Shown here piece by piece: positions 5,454-21,419 of a stretch of 64,000 nucleotides of DNA. The stretch's first letter is position 1, and each line of letters opens with the position of its first letter. The notes below the pieces were generated by a model that saw only the letters and a program-made list of their open reading frames with translations, had not been told where the DNA came from and ran no database searches. Location of the stretch: the NCBI GenBank assembly GCA_019721035.1, contig JAHEAA010000005.1, positions 62,001 through 126,000 of the forward strand, given 5' to 3'. The position numbers were made by a program, and so were the translations under genes. Source of the stretch: Candidatus Sysuiplasma acidicola (GTDB lineage Archaea > Thermoplasmatota > Thermoplasmata > Sysuiplasmatales > Sysuiplasmataceae).

Positions 5454-5763
5454 TATCAGTCCACAATTCAGGCTCATTCAGATAAGCTTACCGCACGTGT
5501 GTCGCTCCACAATACACCGAAACCTGCTGCACCGGACTATCCGCAAGTCGTTCGCCATTCGCTGCATCAACACGACTCTCGAGCAGGAAACAGATAGCGG
5601 CAATTGTGTGGTGCTCCAATCAATCACACTTTAGCCGGAGATTAAGCGTCTGCGAAAGCATCGTTGCTCCCAATAAAGTTTTTATCCTATATGGCAGTTG
5701 AGGAAATTCAACCTTCAAAACAGACGAATGAACCAACTATTACTTCAGGGGTTAAAGGAATTG
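5454..5763. promoter_or_regulatory. Divergent promoter region between polyferredoxin and oxidase operons
   Basis: About 310 bp separate the two divergent start codons. Toward the oxidase a TATA-like GTTTTTATCC sits at 5678-5687, giving a predicted start near 5707. Toward the polyferredoxin a weaker TAAGCTTATC lies at 5481-5489. A GTGTG/CACAC pair flanks 14 bp around 5606-5630. No gene was recognised in between. Confidence 0.4.
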
Positions 5764-8184
5764 ATGGGACACGGTTATAAGGATGAAGCATCTCCGATGA
5801 AGGCTCAGTTGAAGAGATGGCTGTTCACTACAAACCACAAGGACATAGGAATACTGTACCTGTTTACTTCGTTGATCTTCTTCTTCTTCGCGGGCGCCCT
5901 GGCGCTTGTGATGAGAACCCAGCTGTATGTGCCCAACAATACGCTTGTTAATGCGTACTACTACAATCAGCTGGTCACTACACACGGGCTGCTGATGGTT
6001 TTCTTTTTCATCAGTGCATTTGCTTTTTCTTTTGCCAACTATGTCGTCCCGATTCAGGTTGGCGCAAAAGATATGGCTTTCCCGAGATTGAACGCACTGA
6101 GTTACTGGCTCTATTTGTTTGCAGGCATTCTGTTCATAACTGGCTATGCTATGCCTGGAGGCAACATAGCCGGGGGATGGACAATTTACCAGCCGCTCAA
6201 CCAGATAAGATACTCACCCCAGGCCGGAGAGAATGCGGCCATACTCGCGCTGATAGTTCTTTCTATTTCGGTCATCGTAAGCACGGTAAACTTTGCTGTG
6301 ACAATCGCACTGAAGAGAGCCAAGGGATATCGCTGGATAGATCTCCCAATGTTTACCATATCCATAATGTTCACAATAATGATGATGTGGATGGCTTTTC
6401 CAATCTTCGCCCTAGATCTCGGGCTGCTGTTCATTGGCCGTGTGATCGGCGCTTCCGTGCTGCTGTCGCCAGTCGGCGGAGCTCTCCTGTGGCAGCATTT
6501 GTTCTGGTTCTTCGGACATCCGGAAGTCTACATTGTTTTTCTGCCTGCACTGGGTATAATGTATGACGTATCCAGCCTGTTTTCCGGAATGCCAATCTAC
6601 ACCAAGAAACTCATGATAGGTGCATTCGCAATTGAGACACTGATGAGCCTGACGGTGTACATGCACCACATGTTTATGACCGGCACGAATTTGTTCTGGC
6701 TGAATTTTGCGAACGTGAATACACTGATAATAGGTATTCCTGCAGGAGTGCTTGTCCTTGGAGAATTGACTACTAAGATTAAGGGCACATTCAGACCGGA
6801 GACTCCGGCGCTCTTCACAGTAGGAGGAGTGATAGCATTCATCATAGGAGGTGCCAGCGGAATATTCCTGGCAAACATTGCCCTGGACTCGGGGTTTAAC
6901 GGGAACTACCCGGTTGTTGGACATTTCCACTATATTTTTGCGGGCACCATACTCTTCGGCATCTACTCGGGCCTGTACTACTGGTTCCCGAAAATGTTTG
7001 GCAGGATGTACAGCGAGAAACTGGGAAAGCTTCATTTCGTAGCTTCGTTCGTTGGTCTAAACCTCCTGTACTTCCCGATGCTGGCGCTTATCAACATGCC
7101 CAGAAGATACTACACATATCCTGCAGGGCTCGGCTTCACATCACTTAATCAGCTTGCAACCATAGGATCGTATATCTTTGGTTTCGCACAGCTCATTGTC
7201 ATAATCAACATAATTTACTCCATTAAACGCGGTAAACCTGCGAGCGACAATCCCTGGGGAGGGTGGTCATATGAATGGCTCATACCGACACCGCCGCCGG
7301 AGTTCAATTTTGACGGCGTTCCCGTCGTTCAGGGTGACAGGTTGCTCATATTGCCTGAGGTTGCAGGCGCTTCGGAAACTGAGCACCACGGCGGCGGACA
7401 TCTCAGCCCATGGCCATTCGCTCTTTCCCTCGGCATTTTCGTATCCTTGTTTGGTCTCACATTATATACATATTTCAGCGGGATCTATAACCTGGTTATA
7501 GGCCTTGGACTCATGATATTTTCCATTGCTGTTATCGGATGGTTCAACGACGACTATCACGATTATTTCCCCGTAGTGGAAAGGGATGACGACCCTAACA
7601 AAGAAACATGGCCCTTCAGGAATATGGACAGCAAGAGACTTGGAATGTGGGTTTTCATCACCGGCGACATGTTTATGTTCTTCGCGATGATCGGTGCTGC
7701 ATTATTCGTAATCTGGCAATCTCCATACTTCTCCTCACCGTTGCCGAAACCGCTTGTAGACATGACAACACTGGGGGTAAGCATAGTTGTCCTCGGAGGC
7801 AGCATCGTGAGCCTTTATGCCGCACACAGGGGGGTCAGAAGTGACAACAAAGATATGACCGTCGGCGGACTCGTGCTCACAATAATATTTGCATTGATAT
7901 ACCTGGGATATACGATGTCAAATTGGAGTCAACTTGCTGCTTCCGGAAATGGCATTTCAAACATAGCAGAGAGTCCGTTGTTGTCGGTATTCTATGATGC
8001 AGGAATAGTCCACATGATGCACATCATAGCAGCAATTGCATTGCTAATATACTTCCTTATCAAGGGACTGAACGGTAAACTGACAAGCAAAATGAACTCG
8101 CCGAGCATAGCCGCATTGCTCTATTTCTGGGGCCTTATCGCAGTCATGGGAATTCTGCTTAACGGGGCGTTTGCGATGGCGTAA
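5764..8184 (+). CDS. Haem-copper oxidase, fused subunit I + III
   Basis: This is the catalytic subunit of a proton-pumping terminal oxidase, with subunit III fused behind subunit I as in SoxM-type enzymes. Subunit I signatures are complete: TTHG (low-spin haem His), GHPEVY (CuB His, the proton-channel Glu and the cross-linked Tyr of A-type enzymes), VYMHHMF (CuB His pair) and GHFHY (haem ligands). The C-terminal 200 residues begin with WPFRNMDSKRLGMWVFITGDMFMFF and have the subunit III helices. ATG 5764 has an AAAGGA sequence just upstream; ATG 5728 and 5797 are alternatives, and the conserved region starts at KRWLFTTNHKDIG. It heads an operon with the small subunit and subunit II. Confidence 0.95.
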   Translation: MGHGYKDEASPMKAQLKRWLFTTNHKDIGILYLFTSLIFFFFAGALALVMRTQLYVPNNTLVNAYYYNQLVTTHGLLMVFFFISAFAFSFANYVVPIQVGAKDMAFPRLNALSYWLYLFAGILFITGYAMPGGNIAGGWTIYQPLNQIRYSPQAGENAAILALIVLSISVIVSTVNFAVTIALKRAKGYRWIDLPMFTISIMFTIMMMWMAFPIFALDLGLLFIGRVIGASVLLSPVGGALLWQHLFWFFGHPEVYIVFLPALGIMYDVSSLFSGMPIYTKKLMIGAFAIETLMSLTVYMHHMFMTGTNLFWLNFANVNTLIIGIPAGVLVLGELTTKIKGTFRPETPALFTVGGVIAFIIGGASGIFLANIALDSGFNGNYPVVGHFHYIFAGTILFGIYSGLYYWFPKMFGRMYSEKLGKLHFVASFVGLNLLYFPMLALINMPRRYYTYPAGLGFTSLNQLATIGSYIFGFAQLIVIINIIYSIKRGKPASDNPWGGWSYEWLIPTPPPEFNFDGVPVVQGDRLLILPEVAGASETEHHGGGHLSPWPFALSLGIFVSLFGLTLYTYFSGIYNLVIGLGLMIFSIAVIGWFNDDYHDYFPVVERDDDPNKETWPFRNMDSKRLGMWVFITGDMFMFFAMIGAALFVIWQSPYFSSPLPKPLVDMTTLGVSIVVLGGSIVSLYAAHRGVRSDNKDMTVGGLVLTIIFALIYLGYTMSNWSQLAASGNGISNIAESPLLSVFYDAGIVHMMHIIAAIALLIYFLIKGLNGKLTSKMNSPSIAALLYFWGLIAVMGILLNGAFAMA

Positions 8185-8398: not shown

Positions 8399-9088
8399 GT
8401 GCTGATTTCAAAGTTGATGCTGGCCGCTTCCACCTCCGCGACGTCGGCAGTATGGTGGAGACTTTTCAACATATATCTTGTCCTGTCTATCGTATTCAGC
8501 GCATTCTTCATTGCATGGATATTGTATCTGGTAATATCCACCAGGGAAAAGCCAGGCAGGGAAGTGATAAATCACATCAAACCAGGCATAATACCGTCCT
8601 CTACGCGCGGCCGGCCAAGAAACGTCGCGTTTCTCGTGCTGTTCCTTGTCGTTGTCTTTTTCGGACTCTACATATACTCGCTACCCGCGACATACTACAT
8701 CAGACAGGCTCCTTCGAATTCCTCCAACACACTGACGATCGATGTATATGCGGCACAATGGACCTGGACGTTCAGGTATCCAAACGGATACAATGTGACT
8801 GGTTCAGCCAACGTCAAGAACTACACCGCCGAATTTCCGGTGAATACCACCATCATATTCAGAGTCACGAGCCTTGACGTTATGCATGAGTTTTCTATTC
8901 CTGCATTCAAGGTGAAGGTGGATGCGTTTCCAGGTGTCTGGAATACAATATGGACTAACGTTTATCAGCAGGGAACATACACCGCATTCTGCACCGAACT
9001 CTGCGGACTCGGACATGCCGACATGTACGTGCATATGCAATTTGTGAGCGTGTCTACTTACAACGCATGGATAGCCTCCCAGAAATGA
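8399..9088 (+). CDS. Cytochrome oxidase subunit II with CuA centre
   Basis: Subunit II accepts electrons from a soluble or anchored donor. Two N-terminal helices are followed by an extracytoplasmic cupredoxin domain with the full CuA set: H of VMHEFSIP, then C-x3-C-x3-H-x2-M in FCTELCGLGHADM. An intact CuA shows that the donor is a cytochrome c or blue-copper protein rather than quinol. The second helix is preceded by a basic loop of about 45 residues. The GTG at 8399 has GGAG 12 nt upstream; ATG 8417 is the alternative. It is the last gene of the oxidase operon. Confidence 0.93.
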   Translation: MLISKLMLAASTSATSAVWWRLFNIYLVLSIVFSAFFIAWILYLVISTREKPGREVINHIKPGIIPSSTRGRPRNVAFLVLFLVVVFFGLYIYSLPATYYIRQAPSNSSNTLTIDVYAAQWTWTFRYPNGYNVTGSANVKNYTAEFPVNTTIIFRVTSLDVMHEFSIPAFKVKVDAFPGVWNTIWTNVYQQGTYTAFCTELCGLGHADMYVHMQFVSVSTYNAWIASQK

Positions 9089-9149: not shown

Positions 9150-10712
9150 TCAGTCTGACTGCCTTCGGTAAATTGCGTAGGAAACTTCCCCAAGTGTAGC
9201 ACCGTGAAGGAATGTCTTAATCATCGCCGGAATCAGCCCGGCATCGTTAAGTTCCAACGATGAAAGACTGTCGAGAAGGGATGAGACTGACTTTCGTGAT
9301 GATCTCCGCGGCGCTATGGACACAGCACTACGTAGAGATGGACCGACCGCTGACTCAGCGATTCTGCGCCCCTCATGAGTCATTTCACTTCCGAGTATGT
9401 TGACTCCTACCACATACTTTCTACCTGACATGAGTTTTTCATGCGTTTGAGCTGCCTCTTTCTCGATTTCTGAGCGAACGAAGCCTGAAGAGATAGCGTT
9501 CAGCATGCCTCCCATGCCTGAAATGTGTTTGATCAGCGAGTGGGCCTTAGCTTCGAGTTCATCCGTGAGCGATTCCGCGTAATACGAACCTGCCGTGGGA
9601 TCGATTGTGTCCGCAACGCCGCTCTCCTCGTCGAGTATCCGGTGAAGCATCAGTTCACGCCTGAGCTCGGCTTCATTTGAAGAGGCAGACCGTCCTTTGA
9701 TATTACTCACGTGTATCGCCTGTGCCCCGCCAAGAACACTGGCGAGCGCCTGCATTGTCGATCTGATGGTATTGATTTCAGGCTCACTGCCTGCTAGGGC
9801 AAAATCCGAAGATCTCGCGGTGAATCTGAATCTAGCAAGCGAATCCGATATGCCAGGATATCTTGCCTTGATGATTTTGAACCAGAGTCTGCGTGCCGCC
9901 CTGAACTTGGCTATTTCGACAGGCACGTCTGTTCCGACGCCAAGAACAAATGAAATAGTGGAGAGCATCCTTTCCGGCTCAATGCCGTTTTTCTCGGCCG
10001 ATTCGAGATGAGCAAGAGCCGAAGAGAGAACAAAAGCGATTTCATGCACCACGCTGCCGCCATATTCACGGAGCATATAGCCGCTCACACAAAGTGGGGT
10101 GAAGTGAGGGGCATTGTCGAGACAATAATCGATGAGGGCAGCTGACAGTTTCATGGAATCTGCAACAGCGATGTCACTCTTGGTGCCCATCAGCATATCT
10201 TCGATTGGATCGTTCTGAATCATTCCGCCGATATTTTCGGGACCGATGTTCTTTGAAGCGCAGGCCGCAAGGTACATTGACATGATCTGCGGCGCGGCGA
10301 AATTAACGTGGAAACATGGAGAAATTTCGGTTGGTGAAACAGACGACAGGAGTCGCTTCATATCAGCCAGGGAGGACAGGGAAAGGCCTTCTCCACTATC
10401 TTTTCCGCGCCTGGATTTCACCGGATCCAGGCCCATATTCGATCTTGCATCCAAAATCAGGCCGAAACCATTGATACCGTTGGCGAGAAGATATCGGATC
10501 CTGCTGTTTACTGCAGTGGGTGCCGACAGACCAAGGCATTGTGTTATCTGCCACCTTCCTTTCCTGTACATAGCGGCATCTATGCCGCGTGTGAACGGTT
10601 CCAGGCCGGGAAAAGATAAATCACGAAGGTAACGTTCGCCGGGAAAATCTTCCGCAGTGTAGAACAGCTTTCCATCTGCCGGGAAACTTGAAGGCAACCT
10701 ATCCTGCGCCAT
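9150..10712 (-). CDS. Divergent B12-dependent acyl-CoA mutase, large (catalytic) subunit
   Basis: The 520-residue product aligns end to end with the TIM-barrel chain of methylmalonyl-CoA mutase: EPFTRG, MIQND, the A-E-I-A-K-x-R-A-A-R-x-L-W region, GGAQAIH, DPTAGSYY and GGM. It lacks the C-terminal B12-binding domain, so a separate small subunit is needed; none is in the window. By eye alignment, the residues that bind and process the substrate in the well-studied Propionibacterium enzyme are replaced: Thr85 to Gln55, Arg87 to Thr57, Tyr89 to Cys59, Ser114 to Gly84, Arg207 to Gly176, His244 to Met213. Methylmalonyl-CoA is therefore an unlikely substrate. Start chosen at ATG 10712; longer upstream open frame exists but has no homology-like sequence. 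It stands alone, tail to tail with the oxidase operon. Confidence 0.85.
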   Translation of the reverse strand: MAQDRLPSSFPADGKLFYTAEDFPGERYLRDLSFPGLEPFTRGIDAAMYRKGRWQITQCLGLSAPTAVNSRIRYLLANGINGFGLILDARSNMGLDPVKSRRGKDSGEGLSLSSLADMKRLLSSVSPTEISPCFHVNFAAPQIMSMYLAACASKNIGPENIGGMIQNDPIEDMLMGTKSDIAVADSMKLSAALIDYCLDNAPHFTPLCVSGYMLREYGGSVVHEIAFVLSSALAHLESAEKNGIEPERMLSTISFVLGVGTDVPVEIAKFRAARRLWFKIIKARYPGISDSLARFRFTARSSDFALAGSEPEINTIRSTMQALASVLGGAQAIHVSNIKGRSASSNEAELRRELMLHRILDEESGVADTIDPTAGSYYAESLTDELEAKAHSLIKHISGMGGMLNAISSGFVRSEIEKEAAQTHEKLMSGRKYVVGVNILGSEMTHEGRRIAESAVGPSLRSAVSIAPRRSSRKSVSSLLDSLSSLELNDAGLIPAMIKTFLHGATLGEVSYAIYRRQSD

Positions 10713-10920
10713 ATCGCCTTGTCTGCCCGTTCTCCGTTTGCCCGCCACTCTTATCGACACATCATGCATGAATGATATGAAATAGTTTTCAACAGGATTG
10801 AGCCTCTGCGTGTGGGCATACAGAGAAAACGTCAGGTGGAAGTGTGCCCTTTGAAGGAGATGCGAATGAGCGCGGTCAACGCAAAGCCGCAAAGGGCAAC
10901 TTCGGTTACAGATGCAGACA

Positions 10921-11005
10921 TGCGAGGGCTCGGATTTGAACCGAGGAACTCCTTCGAGAACAGATCTTGAGTCTGCCGCCTTTGGCCATACTTGGCTACC
11001 CTCGC
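10921..11005 (-). tRNA. tRNA-Leu, anticodon CAA
   Basis: The 85-nt sequence folds as a class II tRNA: acceptor GCGAGGG pairing with CCCTCGC, a D arm, an anticodon stem GCAGA/TCTGT with loop CTCAAGA (anticodon CAA), a long variable arm, and a T arm CTCGG-TTCAAAT-CCGAG. The discriminator base is A and the CCA end is not encoded. No intron is present. It reads UUG leucine codons. Confidence 0.95.
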
Positions 11006-11073: not shown

Positions 11074-11433
11074 TTAATGCTGTAACCTTTTTTGACGCTG
11101 GTTAACCAGTCTGACTTTGACCTTTCCGCGCAGCCCGGCATCAAGCATTATCATTTCCCTGTTTCTGTACGCGGACTCGTAAAGTGATTTGTCGATATAC
11201 ACGTCCGTTTTATCAGGGAAACTGACATGCATTACCTCGCCGGGAGGTACTTTTCCCGTTACGAAGTCTGCGACCGGTTTCTGCAGCATCTGGCACCAGT
11301 CGTCTCTGCACGGACCCTGCACCATAATGACTTTCACATGCAGCGTAACAGGCTCTCCAAACTTCCTGACCATAAGCTCTGTTAGCTTCCTGTCAATCTT
11401 CACGATATGACGGCCCTCTGCCAGTTCCTTCAC
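11074..11433 (-). CDS. Uncharacterised small Cys-pair protein of the copper operon
   Basis: A 119-residue soluble protein with no family I recognise. It contains QGPCRDDWCQ, a Cys-x4-Cys pair that could bind copper, in an otherwise basic alpha/beta sequence. It starts with GTG at 11433, whose last bases overlap the TGA of the copper ATPase (GTGA), so it is translationally coupled to that pump. A role in copper handling is inferred from this coupling only. Confidence 0.6.
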   Translation of the reverse strand: MKELAEGRHIVKIDRKLTELMVRKFGEPVTLHVKVIMVQGPCRDDWCQMLQKPVADFVTGKVPPGEVMHVSFPDKTDVYIDKSLYESAYRNREMIMLDAGLRGKVKVRLVNQRQKRLQH

Positions 11434-13547
11434 ACCGGTCCTCCTGCACCATGCAGAACTGCAGGCGCATAGCTGAATCTGTTGAGCAGAAGCGAATTCG
11501 TAACGACTGTTGTGCTGCTGAAAGCCATAGCGATGGCTGCCAATATGGGCATAACGCCATATATGCCGAGGCCCAGAAGAGGGACCAGCGCTCCGGCCGC
11601 CACCGGAATCAATATTGCATTGTAGGCAAAAGCCCAGAAAAGGTTCTGCTTTATTTTTGCAAACGTTCTTCGGCCAAGACTCAGTGCAACGGCGATGTCA
11701 TCCGGATTCGCATTCATCAGGACTACGTTGCCAGCCGATTTAGCTATATCAGTTCCGCTTCCGACAGCCATACCCACGTCCGATGAAGCGAGAGAAGGTG
11801 CATCATTTATGCCGTCTCCGACCATAGCCACAACATGACCCTTGCCTTGAAGTTCCCGGATAATCTTCTCCTTTCCTTCTGGTCTGACATCTGCATAAAA
11901 GTCAGATATGCCGATTTTGTTCGCAATGCTTGCGGCAGCTCTGCTGTTATCGCCGGTAATCATGATCAGTTTAATACCCATACTGGAAAGGGAAGCCTGC
12001 AATCCGCTGGAACCTTCGCGGACAATGTCCTGAAACGACGCCAGACCGATGATCCTGTTCTCAAGTCCGGTAAGAACAACTGTTCTTGTCTTCTCCTCTT
12101 CCTCGATAATGTCCCGGCGCGCCGCTTCGATGTCTTCCTCACTGACCGACTGTGATCTGGCCATATCGATATTTCCGGCCCAGTACGTCTTGCCGGCCAC
12201 TTTGGCGTGAATGCCCAGTCCTGGTTGTGCCTCGAATTCTGTAACCTGACCTGGACGTATACCAGAAACTTGCGCGTATTCCATCACGGCTTTTGCCACA
12301 GGATGCTCGGAGTGTGCCTCAATCGATGCCAGAATACTTACGATTTCATCCTTGGTAAAATCTGCGTATGATCTGATATTCGACAGTTCAAAACGTCCCT
12401 CGGTCAGCGTTCCGGTCTTGTCGACTACGACAACATCCACTTTGCTCGCCATTTCAATAGAGTCTCCGCCCTTGAACAATATGCCCAATTTCGCACCTTT
12501 CCCAGCGCCGACCATCAATGCAGCCGGAGTCGCGATACCGAGAGAGCACGGGCAGGCCACGACAATTACTGAAACAAAGGCGAGTATTGCAATGGTGGTG
12601 CCCGCATTCGCAACGAAGTACCAGAACAAAGACGAAATAAGTGCTGAACTCACTACTATTGGGACAAAATAGGATGAGATTCTGTCGGCAAGCCGCTGAA
12701 CGGATGCTTTTCCCTCCCTAGCCTGCGTTACCAAATCGATTATTTGCGAAAGTGCGCTGTCAGAGCCAACAGTTGTTGCCCTGATGACAAATGTTCCTGT
12801 TGTGTTAAGTGTCCCGCCAACGACGTCGTTCCCGATGCTCTTCAACACGGGGATGGACTCACCAGTGACAATTGACTGATCCACTTCACTGACGCCTTCC
12901 ACAACGACGCCATCTACGGGAATGATTTCACCCGGCCGCACGCGTATCATGTCGCCTGTCTGAACCTCCTCAACAGGTGTCGACACCTCCGCTCCATTCC
13001 GGAGAACATTCGCGCTCGTTGGCTGTATGTCCATCAGGCGCCTCGCCGCTTCGGAGGCTCTTCCCTTCATCATCTCCTCCATGAGGTTCCCCGTGAGTAT
13101 GAGTGCGATTATGAGCGAAGATGCGTCAAAATAAACACCGGCCGTGCCTGACAGTGGATTCTGAAAAACAATAGCAGCACTGTATACAAACGCAGTTGTC
13201 GTGCCAACTGCAATCAGCGTATCCATGTTTGTTGACCTGCTCCTGATACCGTCAATAAGACCACAATAGAATCTCAACCCCGGCCAGAACTGAACGATGC
13301 CGGCGAGCACCAGAAGGACGAGATAATCGCCGTAGAAATGAACAAAATATGTGATGATAAAGACAGGGATGCCGAGCGACCAGCTAACAGCCGTCTTCAC
13401 TTTATTCCTGTGCCATGATTTCAAAGGAGCGTCGAATTGCTCCTTGCACGATGAAGCGCAGAAATAATAAGTTTTTCCGCCGACTATGCTGGTGAGCGTG
13501 ACCGTCTTCTCATCCACGTACATGCCGCAGATCGGATCCTTGGCCAT
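11430..13547 (-). CDS. copA: Copper-transporting P1B-type ATPase with N-terminal YHS domain
   Basis: A 705-residue heavy-metal pump that should export Cu(I) using ATP. Residues 1-40 form a YHS metal-binding domain (DPICGMYV, YYFCASSC) in place of the usual HMA domain. The core has the membrane CPC motif (VACPCSLGIATPAAL), phosphorylation site DKTGTLTEG, HP motif (SEHPVAKA), TITGDN-type MITGDN, and GDGINDAP. The last helices have the N-Y and M-SS pattern (FAYNAILIP, AIAMAFSSTTVVTN) of Cu(I) exporters. It follows a small YHS protein by 18 bp and is coupled to a downstream Cys-pair gene. Confidence 0.93.
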   Translation of the reverse strand: MAKDPICGMYVDEKTVTLTSIVGGKTYYFCASSCKEQFDAPLKSWHRNKVKTAVSWSLGIPVFIITYFVHFYGDYLVLLVLAGIVQFWPGLRFYCGLIDGIRSRSTNMDTLIAVGTTTAFVYSAAIVFQNPLSGTAGVYFDASSLIIALILTGNLMEEMMKGRASEAARRLMDIQPTSANVLRNGAEVSTPVEEVQTGDMIRVRPGEIIPVDGVVVEGVSEVDQSIVTGESIPVLKSIGNDVVGGTLNTTGTFVIRATTVGSDSALSQIIDLVTQAREGKASVQRLADRISSYFVPIVVSSALISSLFWYFVANAGTTIAILAFVSVIVVACPCSLGIATPAALMVGAGKGAKLGILFKGGDSIEMASKVDVVVVDKTGTLTEGRFELSNIRSYADFTKDEIVSILASIEAHSEHPVAKAVMEYAQVSGIRPGQVTEFEAQPGLGIHAKVAGKTYWAGNIDMARSQSVSEEDIEAARRDIIEEEEKTRTVVLTGLENRIIGLASFQDIVREGSSGLQASLSSMGIKLIMITGDNSRAAASIANKIGISDFYADVRPEGKEKIIRELQGKGHVVAMVGDGINDAPSLASSDVGMAVGSGTDIAKSAGNVVLMNANPDDIAVALSLGRRTFAKIKQNLFWAFAYNAILIPVAAGALVPLLGLGIYGVMPILAAIAMAFSSTTVVTNSLLLNRFSYAPAVLHGAGGPV

Positions 13548-19202: not shown

Positions 19203-19934
19203 ATGACGACAGTACGGTGCCCTTCATGTGATGCTCCATTTATGGACAAGCCCTCGGAAGTCCGGGCGATCTGCGCCCACTGCGGAACTGCATTCATGTA
19301 CGACGGAATGGGTTCGCATGTTCCGGAATATGCGGTAGCCAGACTCAGCGACACCGAAGCCGTAGAGAGAGTTCACGACTGGGCTTCAGGTGTTAAGGGA
19401 GGCAGAGAATTTTCAAGGAATATGAAGCTTGCAAAAATGACGTTGAGGCACTTTCCGCTGTATGTTTACGGCAAAGCGAGAACCGGCGAAACCATAACAG
19501 TTATTTCCAGTGCCGTACCGTCGATGCAACCGGGCATCGGAATCATTGATCCAAAGTCTGTGGAGTTGAAAAAACTCTCCGCCGAGACTGACTTTTCGGA
19601 TTTTACAATGCCTCAGACGGAGCCGGACGCATACAGTTCGCTGCTCTCCGTTGACGCATCCACTAGAAAACTCGTCTTTTATCCGTTCTGGCTCACACAG
19701 TACGTGTATCATGGAAGGCTCAATACCATAACTGTCGACGCCTGCACCGGAAAAGTCTCCGGGGATCTCAGCGTGGAGATAGAGAAAAAGAGTTCTCTTC
19801 CTCTTGCAGCAGGTGGCTTTGCCGCAATAAGCGCCGAGGGTCTTGTCGCGTATTTCGGTTACATCTATGCGGTGGCTGCCATAGCGATTACTGTTTTCGC
19901 GCTGATTTTGTATTCTGTCAGGAGGAATGAGTAA
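19203..19934 (+). CDS. Zinc-ribbon protein with C-terminal membrane anchor (paralogue 1 of 3)
   Basis: A 243-residue protein starting with a C-x2-C...C-x2-C zinc ribbon (CPSC, CAHC), then a beta-rich middle domain with FPLYVY and KLVFYPFW motifs, and a C-terminal hydrophobic helix (YAVAAIAITVFALILYSV). The ribbon should face the cytoplasm. It heads three tandem genes of one family. TATA-like TTTACATATAATC lies near 19093-19105. Function unknown. Confidence 0.75.
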   Translation: MTTVRCPSCDAPFMDKPSEVRAICAHCGTAFMYDGMGSHVPEYAVARLSDTEAVERVHDWASGVKGGREFSRNMKLAKMTLRHFPLYVYGKARTGETITVISSAVPSMQPGIGIIDPKSVELKKLSAETDFSDFTMPQTEPDAYSSLLSVDASTRKLVFYPFWLTQYVYHGRLNTITVDACTGKVSGDLSVEIEKKSSLPLAAGGFAAISAEGLVAYFGYIYAVAAIAITVFALILYSVRRNE

Positions 19935-19935
19935 G

Positions 19936-20844
19936 ATGATATCCAAAAGCGGATGTGTGGAGTGCGGGTCACCGGTATTCTTTGATGAATTCGACTTCAT
20001 GACGACATGCTCTACGTGTGGAACTGCGTTCAGGCTGCCGAGAGACAACTCGGGCGCCTGGGTGCTCACGTACGCGTCTGAGATTGACATCAACGAGGCA
20101 ATAGACAGAGGGGTGAGCATCATATCGGCAAAATTCGGCGGAAAGAGATTCGCGAAAGAGATAGAACTCAAGGAAGTTTACCCCGTCTACCTGCCCTTAT
20201 GGAATGTTTCCGCAAAGTCTTCCGGATGGATATGCAGTTCAGATGCTGAAGGCGGAGAGGCGCTGCCCGTGCACCTGGAAAAACAATTCAGGATACCCGC
20301 ATATGACGATGTCCAGACCATTGGCGTGCCTAAAGAAGTGAACGGGACAGACGTTACCATTTCAAATGATATGGTTTTCCCGGCACTGCATGTTAAAATC
20401 AGAACAGATGAACTAAAGAGAAAGGTCGAGGAATTGATGGACACCGAGATTGACGGGTTCCGGCATACGAAACAATCAGCTGAGAACATCAGGACTTCTG
20501 TTACAGTTCAGACGCTTGTAATGTATCCGGCATGGATCGTAAGATTCGGCACTAGAAACGGTGAACATGCGGTGACAATTGACGGCATCAGCGGACAGCA
20601 GATGAATGACTTCGGCTTCAGAGTCACGGACACCGGGATTGTCGGTGAGGCCGTGCTGGCTGCATGCTGCGGCATCACTTCAGGTACAGGCGTAATGATG
20701 CTGGCCTCAGGTGCTTTTCAAAACATAGGTTTGGGTCTGGTCACAGCCGGCGTGTCGCTCTTTGTGCTGGTGAATGTACTGAGGCATGTGCTGAAGAGCC
20801 AGCACCTTAATCCAAGACCGGAAGCAAGGAGGATGTCGATTTGA
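19936..20844 (+). CDS. Zinc-ribbon protein with C-terminal membrane helices (paralogue 2 of 3)
   Basis: A 302-residue paralogue of the gene before it: an N-terminal ribbon (CVECG, CSTCG), the shared YPVYLPLW and TLVMYPAWIV motifs, an ITIDGISGQ-like repeat of the first protein's ITVDACTGK, and two C-terminal hydrophobic helices. ATG 19936 is chosen because AGGAGG (19920-19925) sits 10 nt upstream; ATG 19927 would leave one base of spacing. It begins right after the stop of paralogue 1. Function unknown. Confidence 0.75.
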   Translation: MISKSGCVECGSPVFFDEFDFMTTCSTCGTAFRLPRDNSGAWVLTYASEIDINEAIDRGVSIISAKFGGKRFAKEIELKEVYPVYLPLWNVSAKSSGWICSSDAEGGEALPVHLEKQFRIPAYDDVQTIGVPKEVNGTDVTISNDMVFPALHVKIRTDELKRKVEELMDTEIDGFRHTKQSAENIRTSVTVQTLVMYPAWIVRFGTRNGEHAVTIDGISGQQMNDFGFRVTDTGIVGEAVLAACCGITSGTGVMMLASGAFQNIGLGLVTAGVSLFVLVNVLRHVLKSQHLNPRPEARRMSI

Positions 20845-21419
20845 ACCCTGTTGCGGAAAGATGCCCCAGATGCGGAAAGAACACGAAGGCTGAAAAAGGG
20901 GAAGTCGTCGCATATTGCTCCTCATGCAAGAGTCTGCATGAAATAGGCGACAGATCGGTCATCGATGTTGAAATTGCCAAGTTTGGCAATGTCTCTGATG
21001 GTCACAGGATATACGTGCCATTCTGGAGATTCTTCTGCACGTTCAGCCTTCCGGGCGCAGAAACGGAAATGCACAGGAACATGAAGGAATTCGTGAAAGA
21101 CGGAAATGATGGCAAGGTATTCGTGTATGTCCCCGCCGCCGAACTTGGACCGCAGGAGCTGCTTAAAATGGGCGCCTACATGACGGCCTGCAATCCCGTC
21201 TATTCAACAACCTTCTCATTCGGCGACGTCGAACACCTGAAATGCACGCATCTGAGCGATGATGCGAGAGGGGACATAGAGTATTATTTCATGGCTGCCG
21301 AAACTGCCGACGGAAGAAAGGATGACCTGAGGAACGGTTTCACCATAGACGCTTCACACGAAAAGCTCGTGTTCCTGCCTTTCTACCAGTCCGGTAACCA
21401 GTTCAATCCTGCGGTCTGA
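20841..21419 (+). CDS. Zinc-ribbon protein, shortened (paralogue 3 of 3)
   Basis: A 192-residue third member: ribbon CPRCG...CSSCK, then RIYVPFW and KLVFLPFYQ motifs. It ends straight after the second motif and lacks the segment and membrane helix that follow it in the other two. The start is TTG at 20841, overlapping the previous stop (TTGA) with AAGGAGG eight bases upstream, so this non-ATG start is well supported. Its last 17 bp overlap the end of the convergent Nudix gene. Probably a soluble partner of the two anchored copies. Confidence 0.72.
   Translation: MNPVAERCPRCGKNTKAEKGEVVAYCSSCKSLHEIGDRSVIDVEIAKFGNVSDGHRIYVPFWRFFCTFSLPGAETEMHRNMKEFVKDGNDGKVFVYVPAAELGPQELLKMGAYMTACNPVYSTTFSFGDVEHLKCTHLSDDARGDIEYYFMAAETADGRKDDLRNGFTIDASHEKLVFLPFYQSGNQFNPAV

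Follow-up and report, generated by a model that had tools for sequence, protein, structure and literature searches.

What can be the role of a protein which by its overall sequence is a large subunit of a B12-dependent acyl-coenzyme A (acyl-CoA) mutase, and which lacks nearly all the residues recognized as binding the substrate or supporting catalysis? The question is raised by a gene located in a 64,000-nucleotide stretch of the genome of the archaeon Candidatus Sysuiplasma acidicola (contig JAHEAA010000005.1, positions 62,001–126,000; hereafter, the window). The gene is a real, selected, and genus-restricted pseudo-mutase. Judging from its sequence and those of its orthologues, the protein would be a non-catalytic pseudoenzyme of the mutase large subunit with the fold kept by selection and the pockets released (probability about 0.78). 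The comparison included the genome of the window (G000), three other genomes of the genus (G005, G006, and G007), and the sister genus (e.g., G002 and G004).

The affiliation of the protein with the acyl-CoA mutase large subunits follows from both the profiles and the barrel fold. The Pfam model MM_CoA_mutase (PF01642) matches it over the whole domain with 394 bits (E 1e-117, cut-off 22); TIGR00641 yields 315 bits, just above its cut-off of 303.8, and the two most diverged orthologues score below this cut-off. The open reading frame (ORF) on the minus strand terminates at a stop codon at 9150–9152 and encodes 520 amino acids (aa) if started at 10712, or 539 aa if translation begins at the in-frame ATG at 10769. 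The latter start appears more likely, since the N-terminus of the G006 orthologue (63–65% identical) aligns there (HDxxIxVxGKR). The DxHxxG motif of B12 binding is absent from the sequence. Eight barrel strands were predicted by AlphaFold2, fed with alignments containing orthodox mutases as an aid to fold prediction, for the window protein (predicted local distance difference test, pLDDT, 80; predicted template modelling score, pTM, 0.83) and for its most diverged orthologue (pLDDT 76, pTM 0.81); the termini, the linker, and some barrel-mouth loops are of low confidence in these models. In a Foldseek comparison, the model gave a template modelling (TM) score of 0.83 with 1req_A and 4r3u_B, and 0.66 with MutA (1req_B). 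The Pfam score, the predicted barrel, and the TM score bear out the original prediction that this is a true mutase-fold protein.

Its active site is a different matter. For 1REQ, the Catalytic Site Atlas lists Tyr89 and His244 (PMC3205055). Residues were mapped with phmmer against chain A of 1REQ and with a MAFFT alignment including 125 orthodox mutase large subunits, and the two mappings agree. The other contact residues considered here are those lining the pockets in the P. shermanii structures. The six substitutions initially noticed (T85 to Q55, R87 to T57, Y89 to C59, S114 to G84, R207 to G176, and H244 to M213) proved exact in both mappings. They are accompanied by S164C, T166H, T195M, N236T, F287V, H328T, Q330R, G333D, S362A, N366S, and E370G, as well as by R283T, a change found in the window protein only among the four orthologues. 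An alignment shift is not behind these losses: the SGY, RE.G, and QND flanks are in register, and no nearby His or Arg could serve as a substitute. The claim that every recognized residue was gone turned out slightly too strong: nearly all of them are lost, but Y243, E247, S285, Q361, Q197, and D199 remain. Within the acyl/CoA-contact set (T85, R87, S114, S164, T195, Q197, R207, N236, R283, Q361, and S362), only Q197 and Q361 are retained, and the CoA-tunnel and adenosyl-facing positions have disappeared together with the acyl-binding ones.

The invariance of the same positions in the orthodox enzymes underlines the scale of this loss. All 125 sequences have H244, R87, T195, N236, S362, and E370; position 89 is Y or F, and position 207 is R or Q. 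The earlier assumption that the known subfamilies keep the catalytic His thus holds for everything tested, including the large subunit of 2-hydroxyisobutyryl-CoA mutase, HcmA (SGYH). An active mutase is expected to combine His244 with Tyr, Phe, or Ile at position 89, where the window protein has Met and Cys, respectively. On these residues, it is quite likely to be non-catalytic as a mutase.

A useful reference is the only other mutase large subunit of the genome, encoded on a separate contig (C4:33437-34960; L047:9411-11105) and about 30% identical to the paralogue. It bears F89/Q207/H244, the isobutyryl-CoA mutase (ICM) signature; the best NCBIfam models for this orthodox enzyme are named methylmalonyl-CoA mutase despite the F89 and Q207 letters. 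Its gene is followed by that of the only B12-binding small subunit of the methylmalonyl-CoA mutase (MCM) type in the genome (C4:33044-33385) and by MeaB. The search for a separate small subunit elsewhere in the genome, proposed at the outset, therefore revealed none to spare. A second ORF with a B12-binding domain was rejected as a partner, being a radical S-adenosylmethionine protein. Hence, the paralogue has neither a B12 domain in cis nor a dedicated small subunit, and it may share that of the orthodox enzyme. The orthodox enzyme is present in all four paralogue-bearing genomes; in the sister genus, the orthodox operon occurs as well and the paralogue does not.

The paralogue evolves under constraint, distributed unlike that of the active enzyme. 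In the closest pair (G000/G006), the non-synonymous (dN) and synonymous (dS) divergences of the paralogue are 0.26 and 1.72 (ratio 0.15), and those of the orthodox enzyme are 0.05 and 1.19 (ratio 0.04); dS is near saturation, so these ratios are rough. The dN of the paralogue is about five times that of the orthodox enzyme, yet its evolution is not neutral. The ORF is intact in 4/4 genomes of the genus, across a divergence far deeper than that of G000 and G006: in the deeper pairs, identity falls to 35–38%, against 80–82% for the orthodox enzyme, which is 80–92% identical within the genus. Of the 138 columns invariant at a level of at least 95% in the 125 orthodox mutases, the four paralogues have 46 in common with the orthodox enzymes, and a further 48 are lost from every one of them.

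It is the ligand-contacting positions that account for the contrast with active mutases. At 30 substrate- and cofactor-contact sites, the orthodox enzyme of the genus shows 96% identity vs. 86% elsewhere; at these 30 sites in the paralogues, the order is reversed (32% vs. 43%). Invariant ligand columns keep 1.05 letters of four on average, and other invariant columns 2.16 (permutation p = 0.0055). By this pattern of sequence conservation, the protein as a whole is under constraint, and its pocket is where the constraint is weakest. The replacing letters also vary from orthologue to orthologue: M/G/H/N at position 244, G/D/S/S at 207, and Q/Q/R/E at 85. A new specificity would predict an active site changed but common to the orthologues; since the letters differ, a pseudoenzyme is favored over a new specificity. 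Of the two roles guessed in the original prediction, an unknown acyl-CoA as the substrate thus finds no support, considering that the CoA-tunnel and adenosyl sites are lost as well, that the replacements differ among the four orthologues, and that the ligand sites are the least conserved. The other guess, a different job, is the better one.

The favored scenario would run as follows. Either the ancestor of the genus acquired the paralogue in the slot behind tRNA-Leu(CAA), or the sister genus lost it; purifying selection would then have retained the fold while the acyl-CoA and adenosylcobalamin pockets went free of constraint. By analogy with the inactive MutA, which does so for MutB, the protein probably fulfils its job through protein–protein contact. 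On general grounds, its likeliest putative partner would be the ICM-type large subunit of the same cell or the paralogue itself, as a homodimer. A more novel version of this scenario, in which a non-catalytic mutase subunit arose a second time, independently, as a barrel-only protein in an archaeal genus, to regulate the ICM-type enzyme or to be recruited elsewhere via Y243, E247, S285, and R330, has an even chance of being correct.

Several observations weigh against this interpretation. The G007 orthologue has His244, and that of G006 has Arg87. All four orthologues retain Y243, E247, and S285, which MutA proteins have lost, and carry Arg in place of Q330; thus, the barrel mouth remains partly constrained. 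In addition, linkage to the catalytic partner and a similar evolutionary rate would be expected of an obligate subunit, and the paralogue is unlinked to the orthodox enzyme, at roughly fivefold its dN.

The conserved part of the barrel mouth speaks for new chemistry in the old barrel, either B12-independent or directed to another acyl-CoA. In 14 columns, Q330R of the barrel among them, the four paralogues have a common letter differing from the mutase consensus, and Y243, E247, and S285 are kept. This explanation is nevertheless improbable: no conserved new polar set is found at the ends of strands 1–4, the ligand sites are conserved below average among the orthologues, the protein has no B12 subunit of its own, and the barrel-mouth loops are low in model confidence. 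The very fast evolution of the paralogue, down to the above-mentioned 35–38% identity, could instead suggest a pseudogene drifting to loss. This is largely refuted, and has only a slim chance of being right, by four intact ORFs persisting over saturated synonymous divergence, the dN/dS of about 0.15, and the retention of structural invariants and of the predicted fold, in line with the initial impression that the gene does not look like a decaying pseudogene. Least credible of all is the idea that a poor alignment disguises an ordinary member of one of the known subfamilies. The Pfam and TIGR00641 matches above cut-off speak for it, but the alignment refutes it: phmmer, MAFFT, and fold comparison agree with the motifs in register, and the paralogues form a clade of their own. 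Moreover, no relative closer than the orthodox mutases was found in samples of 400 genomes of the class and 390 of the phylum, where matches did not exceed 413 bits, against 899–927 bits for the four paralogues (themselves in the profile).

A narrower form of the pseudoenzyme explanation is a heterodimer with the ICM-type large subunit of the genus, which the paralogue would stabilize or regulate in a MutA-like manner. The losses in the paralogue and in MutA concern one class of sites, the retained scaffold is the same in both, and all four paralogue-bearing genomes also carry the orthodox enzyme. At the same time, the sister genus shows that the enzyme does not need the paralogue. Since the latter is also unlinked to the orthodox operon and evolves much faster, its role as a dedicated partner is doubtful, and the heterodimer is rather unlikely, albeit less so than new chemistry. 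Overall, a pseudoenzyme with its fold under selection remains the preferred explanation.

In the phylogenetic tree, the four paralogues constitute a single clade with very long branches and 100/100 support, outside the subfamilies placed there, as anticipated; characterized EcmA and HcmA sequences were not among them. The letters of the window protein at positions 89/207/244 (C/G/M) match none of the isobutyryl-, methylmalonyl-, ethylmalonyl-, and 2-hydroxyisobutyryl-CoA mutases. The paralogue may stem either from the ICM-type enzyme of its own lineage or from a donor of the MCM type: joining the paralogues to the ICM type gave p = 0.40 in the approximately unbiased (AU) test, the diagnostic columns were split 8 against 7, and raw identity leaned slightly towards the MCM type.

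The paralogue occurs in 4/4 genomes of the genus (the orthologues are 63, 39, and 37% identical to the window protein) and in 0/4 genomes of the sister genus. In a contig collection, which may leave out genomes near that of the window, the single protein found no match, and a four-row profile found only mutases of at most 38% identity. One syntenic locus is shared by the four genomes (Table 1), running from a P-type ATPase through an ORF of about 119 aa and tRNA-Leu(CAA) to the paralogue; cytochrome oxidase genes come next in G000, G006, and G005. After the same tRNA-Leu, the sister genus has a Na/H exchanger in G002 and a response-regulator/PAS protein in G004, and no mutase remnant was present in the slot of either. 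A 515-aa ORF considered as a hidden orthologue in G002 is the Na/H exchanger itself. As the slot contents differ by lineage, the paralogue was either gained there in the ancestor of the genus or lost from the sister genus.

Table 1. Features of the pseudo-mutase locus (positions within the window)
Feature	Coordinates	Strand	Evidence
Pseudo-mutase, acyl-CoA mutase large-subunit paralogue, substrate-binding barrel only	9150..10769	(-)	PF01642 394 bits + residue mapping
tRNA-Leu(CAA), upstream landmark	10921..11005	(-)	ARAGORN, all four genus loci + two sister-genus loci
119-aa ORF, syntenic in both genera	11074..11433	(-)	Synteny; no Pfam match
YHS-domain metal P-type ATPase, syntenic landmark	11430..13547	(-)	Pfam, synteny
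Cytochrome c oxidase subunit II, convergent neighbor in G000, G006, and G005	8399..9088	(+)	Pfam, synteny

Further peculiarities of the neighborhood deserve mention. Between tRNA-Leu(CAA) and the UbiA/cytochrome-oxidase genes, each lineage has a different gene (L201:7399-8946, L202:5960-6823, and window 9150-10769), so the slot, with its pseudo-mutase, Na/H exchanger, or response regulator with PAS, has the look of an exchange site next to a tRNA gene. In G006, the interval between tRNA-Leu and the pseudo-mutase contains a fragment of an IS605-type OrfB/TnpB protein (L043:11696-12175). The 119-aa ORF always follows the YHS-domain P-type ATPase and is only about 30–48% identical within the genus, far below most neighbors. 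At 5698–8184, a single 828-aa ORF represents fused cytochrome oxidase subunits I and III (COX1 and COX3 Pfam matches). Three successive ORFs at 19203–21419 have N-terminal paired CxxC motifs (zinc-ribbon-like), the first two ending in hydrophobic stretches. Neighboring isoprenoid genes, named by inspection, encode a geranylgeranyl diphosphate (GGPP) synthase and a geranylgeranyl-reductase-like protein, which points to an archaeal genome.

The case has a practical side: automatic annotation would name the gene methylmalonyl-CoA mutase, crediting the organism with a reaction probably not performed there by this protein, and profile scores alone do not expose the loss of the active site. If the proposed interpretation is true, the loss of the catalytic site has befallen a mutase barrel that does not belong to the MutA lineage and that selection has nonetheless maintained; the same cell has an active paralogue to compare it with, and a sister genus manages without the pseudo-mutase. 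No account of such a paralogue was found in the open-access literature searched, which does not prove that none exists.

In bacteria, methylmalonyl-CoA mutase is commonly a heterodimer in which an active subunit is paired with an inactive one (PMC9974510; PMC10481361). The inactive beta subunit, MutA (TIGR00642; 1REQ chain B), is the closest analogue of the paralogue: both are mutase-fold copies devoid of R87, Y89, T195, R207, N236, H244, and N366. Two MutA sequences lack nearly the same ligand sites and share with the paralogues 46 of the 64 scaffold columns retained in at least three of the latter (Fisher p = 1.5e-4); any inactive mutase barrel should show such an overlap, which supports an inactive scaffold more than a MutA-like partner. 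Membership in the MutA family itself was rejected: the paralogue scores 131 bits against a TIGR00642 cut-off of 617, stops at the barrel (539 aa vs. about 620–745) with no degenerate C-terminal B12 domain, and shares no operon with a catalytic subunit, the orthodox enzyme being on another contig.

Among the active enzymes, HcmA (4R3U) comes nearest in sequence of all solved structures (phmmer E 3e-71) and is likewise a stand-alone large subunit of similar length with the GGAQ motif. HcmA works with a separate B12 small subunit; unlike HcmA, the window protein lacks the His, the R87 equivalent, and S114. The IcmA-type enzyme of its own genome belongs to the same Pfam family, but the paralogue has neither F89/Q207/H244, nor a neighboring B12 subunit and MeaB, nor such a high identity within the genus. 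With MutB/MUT (1REQ chain A), it has the barrel fold in common, and it differs by the absence of the C-terminal B12 domain and of the catalytic Tyr89 and His244. Inactive mutase paralogues are already known as a class, and the protein described here would be a variant of it in an archaeal genus.
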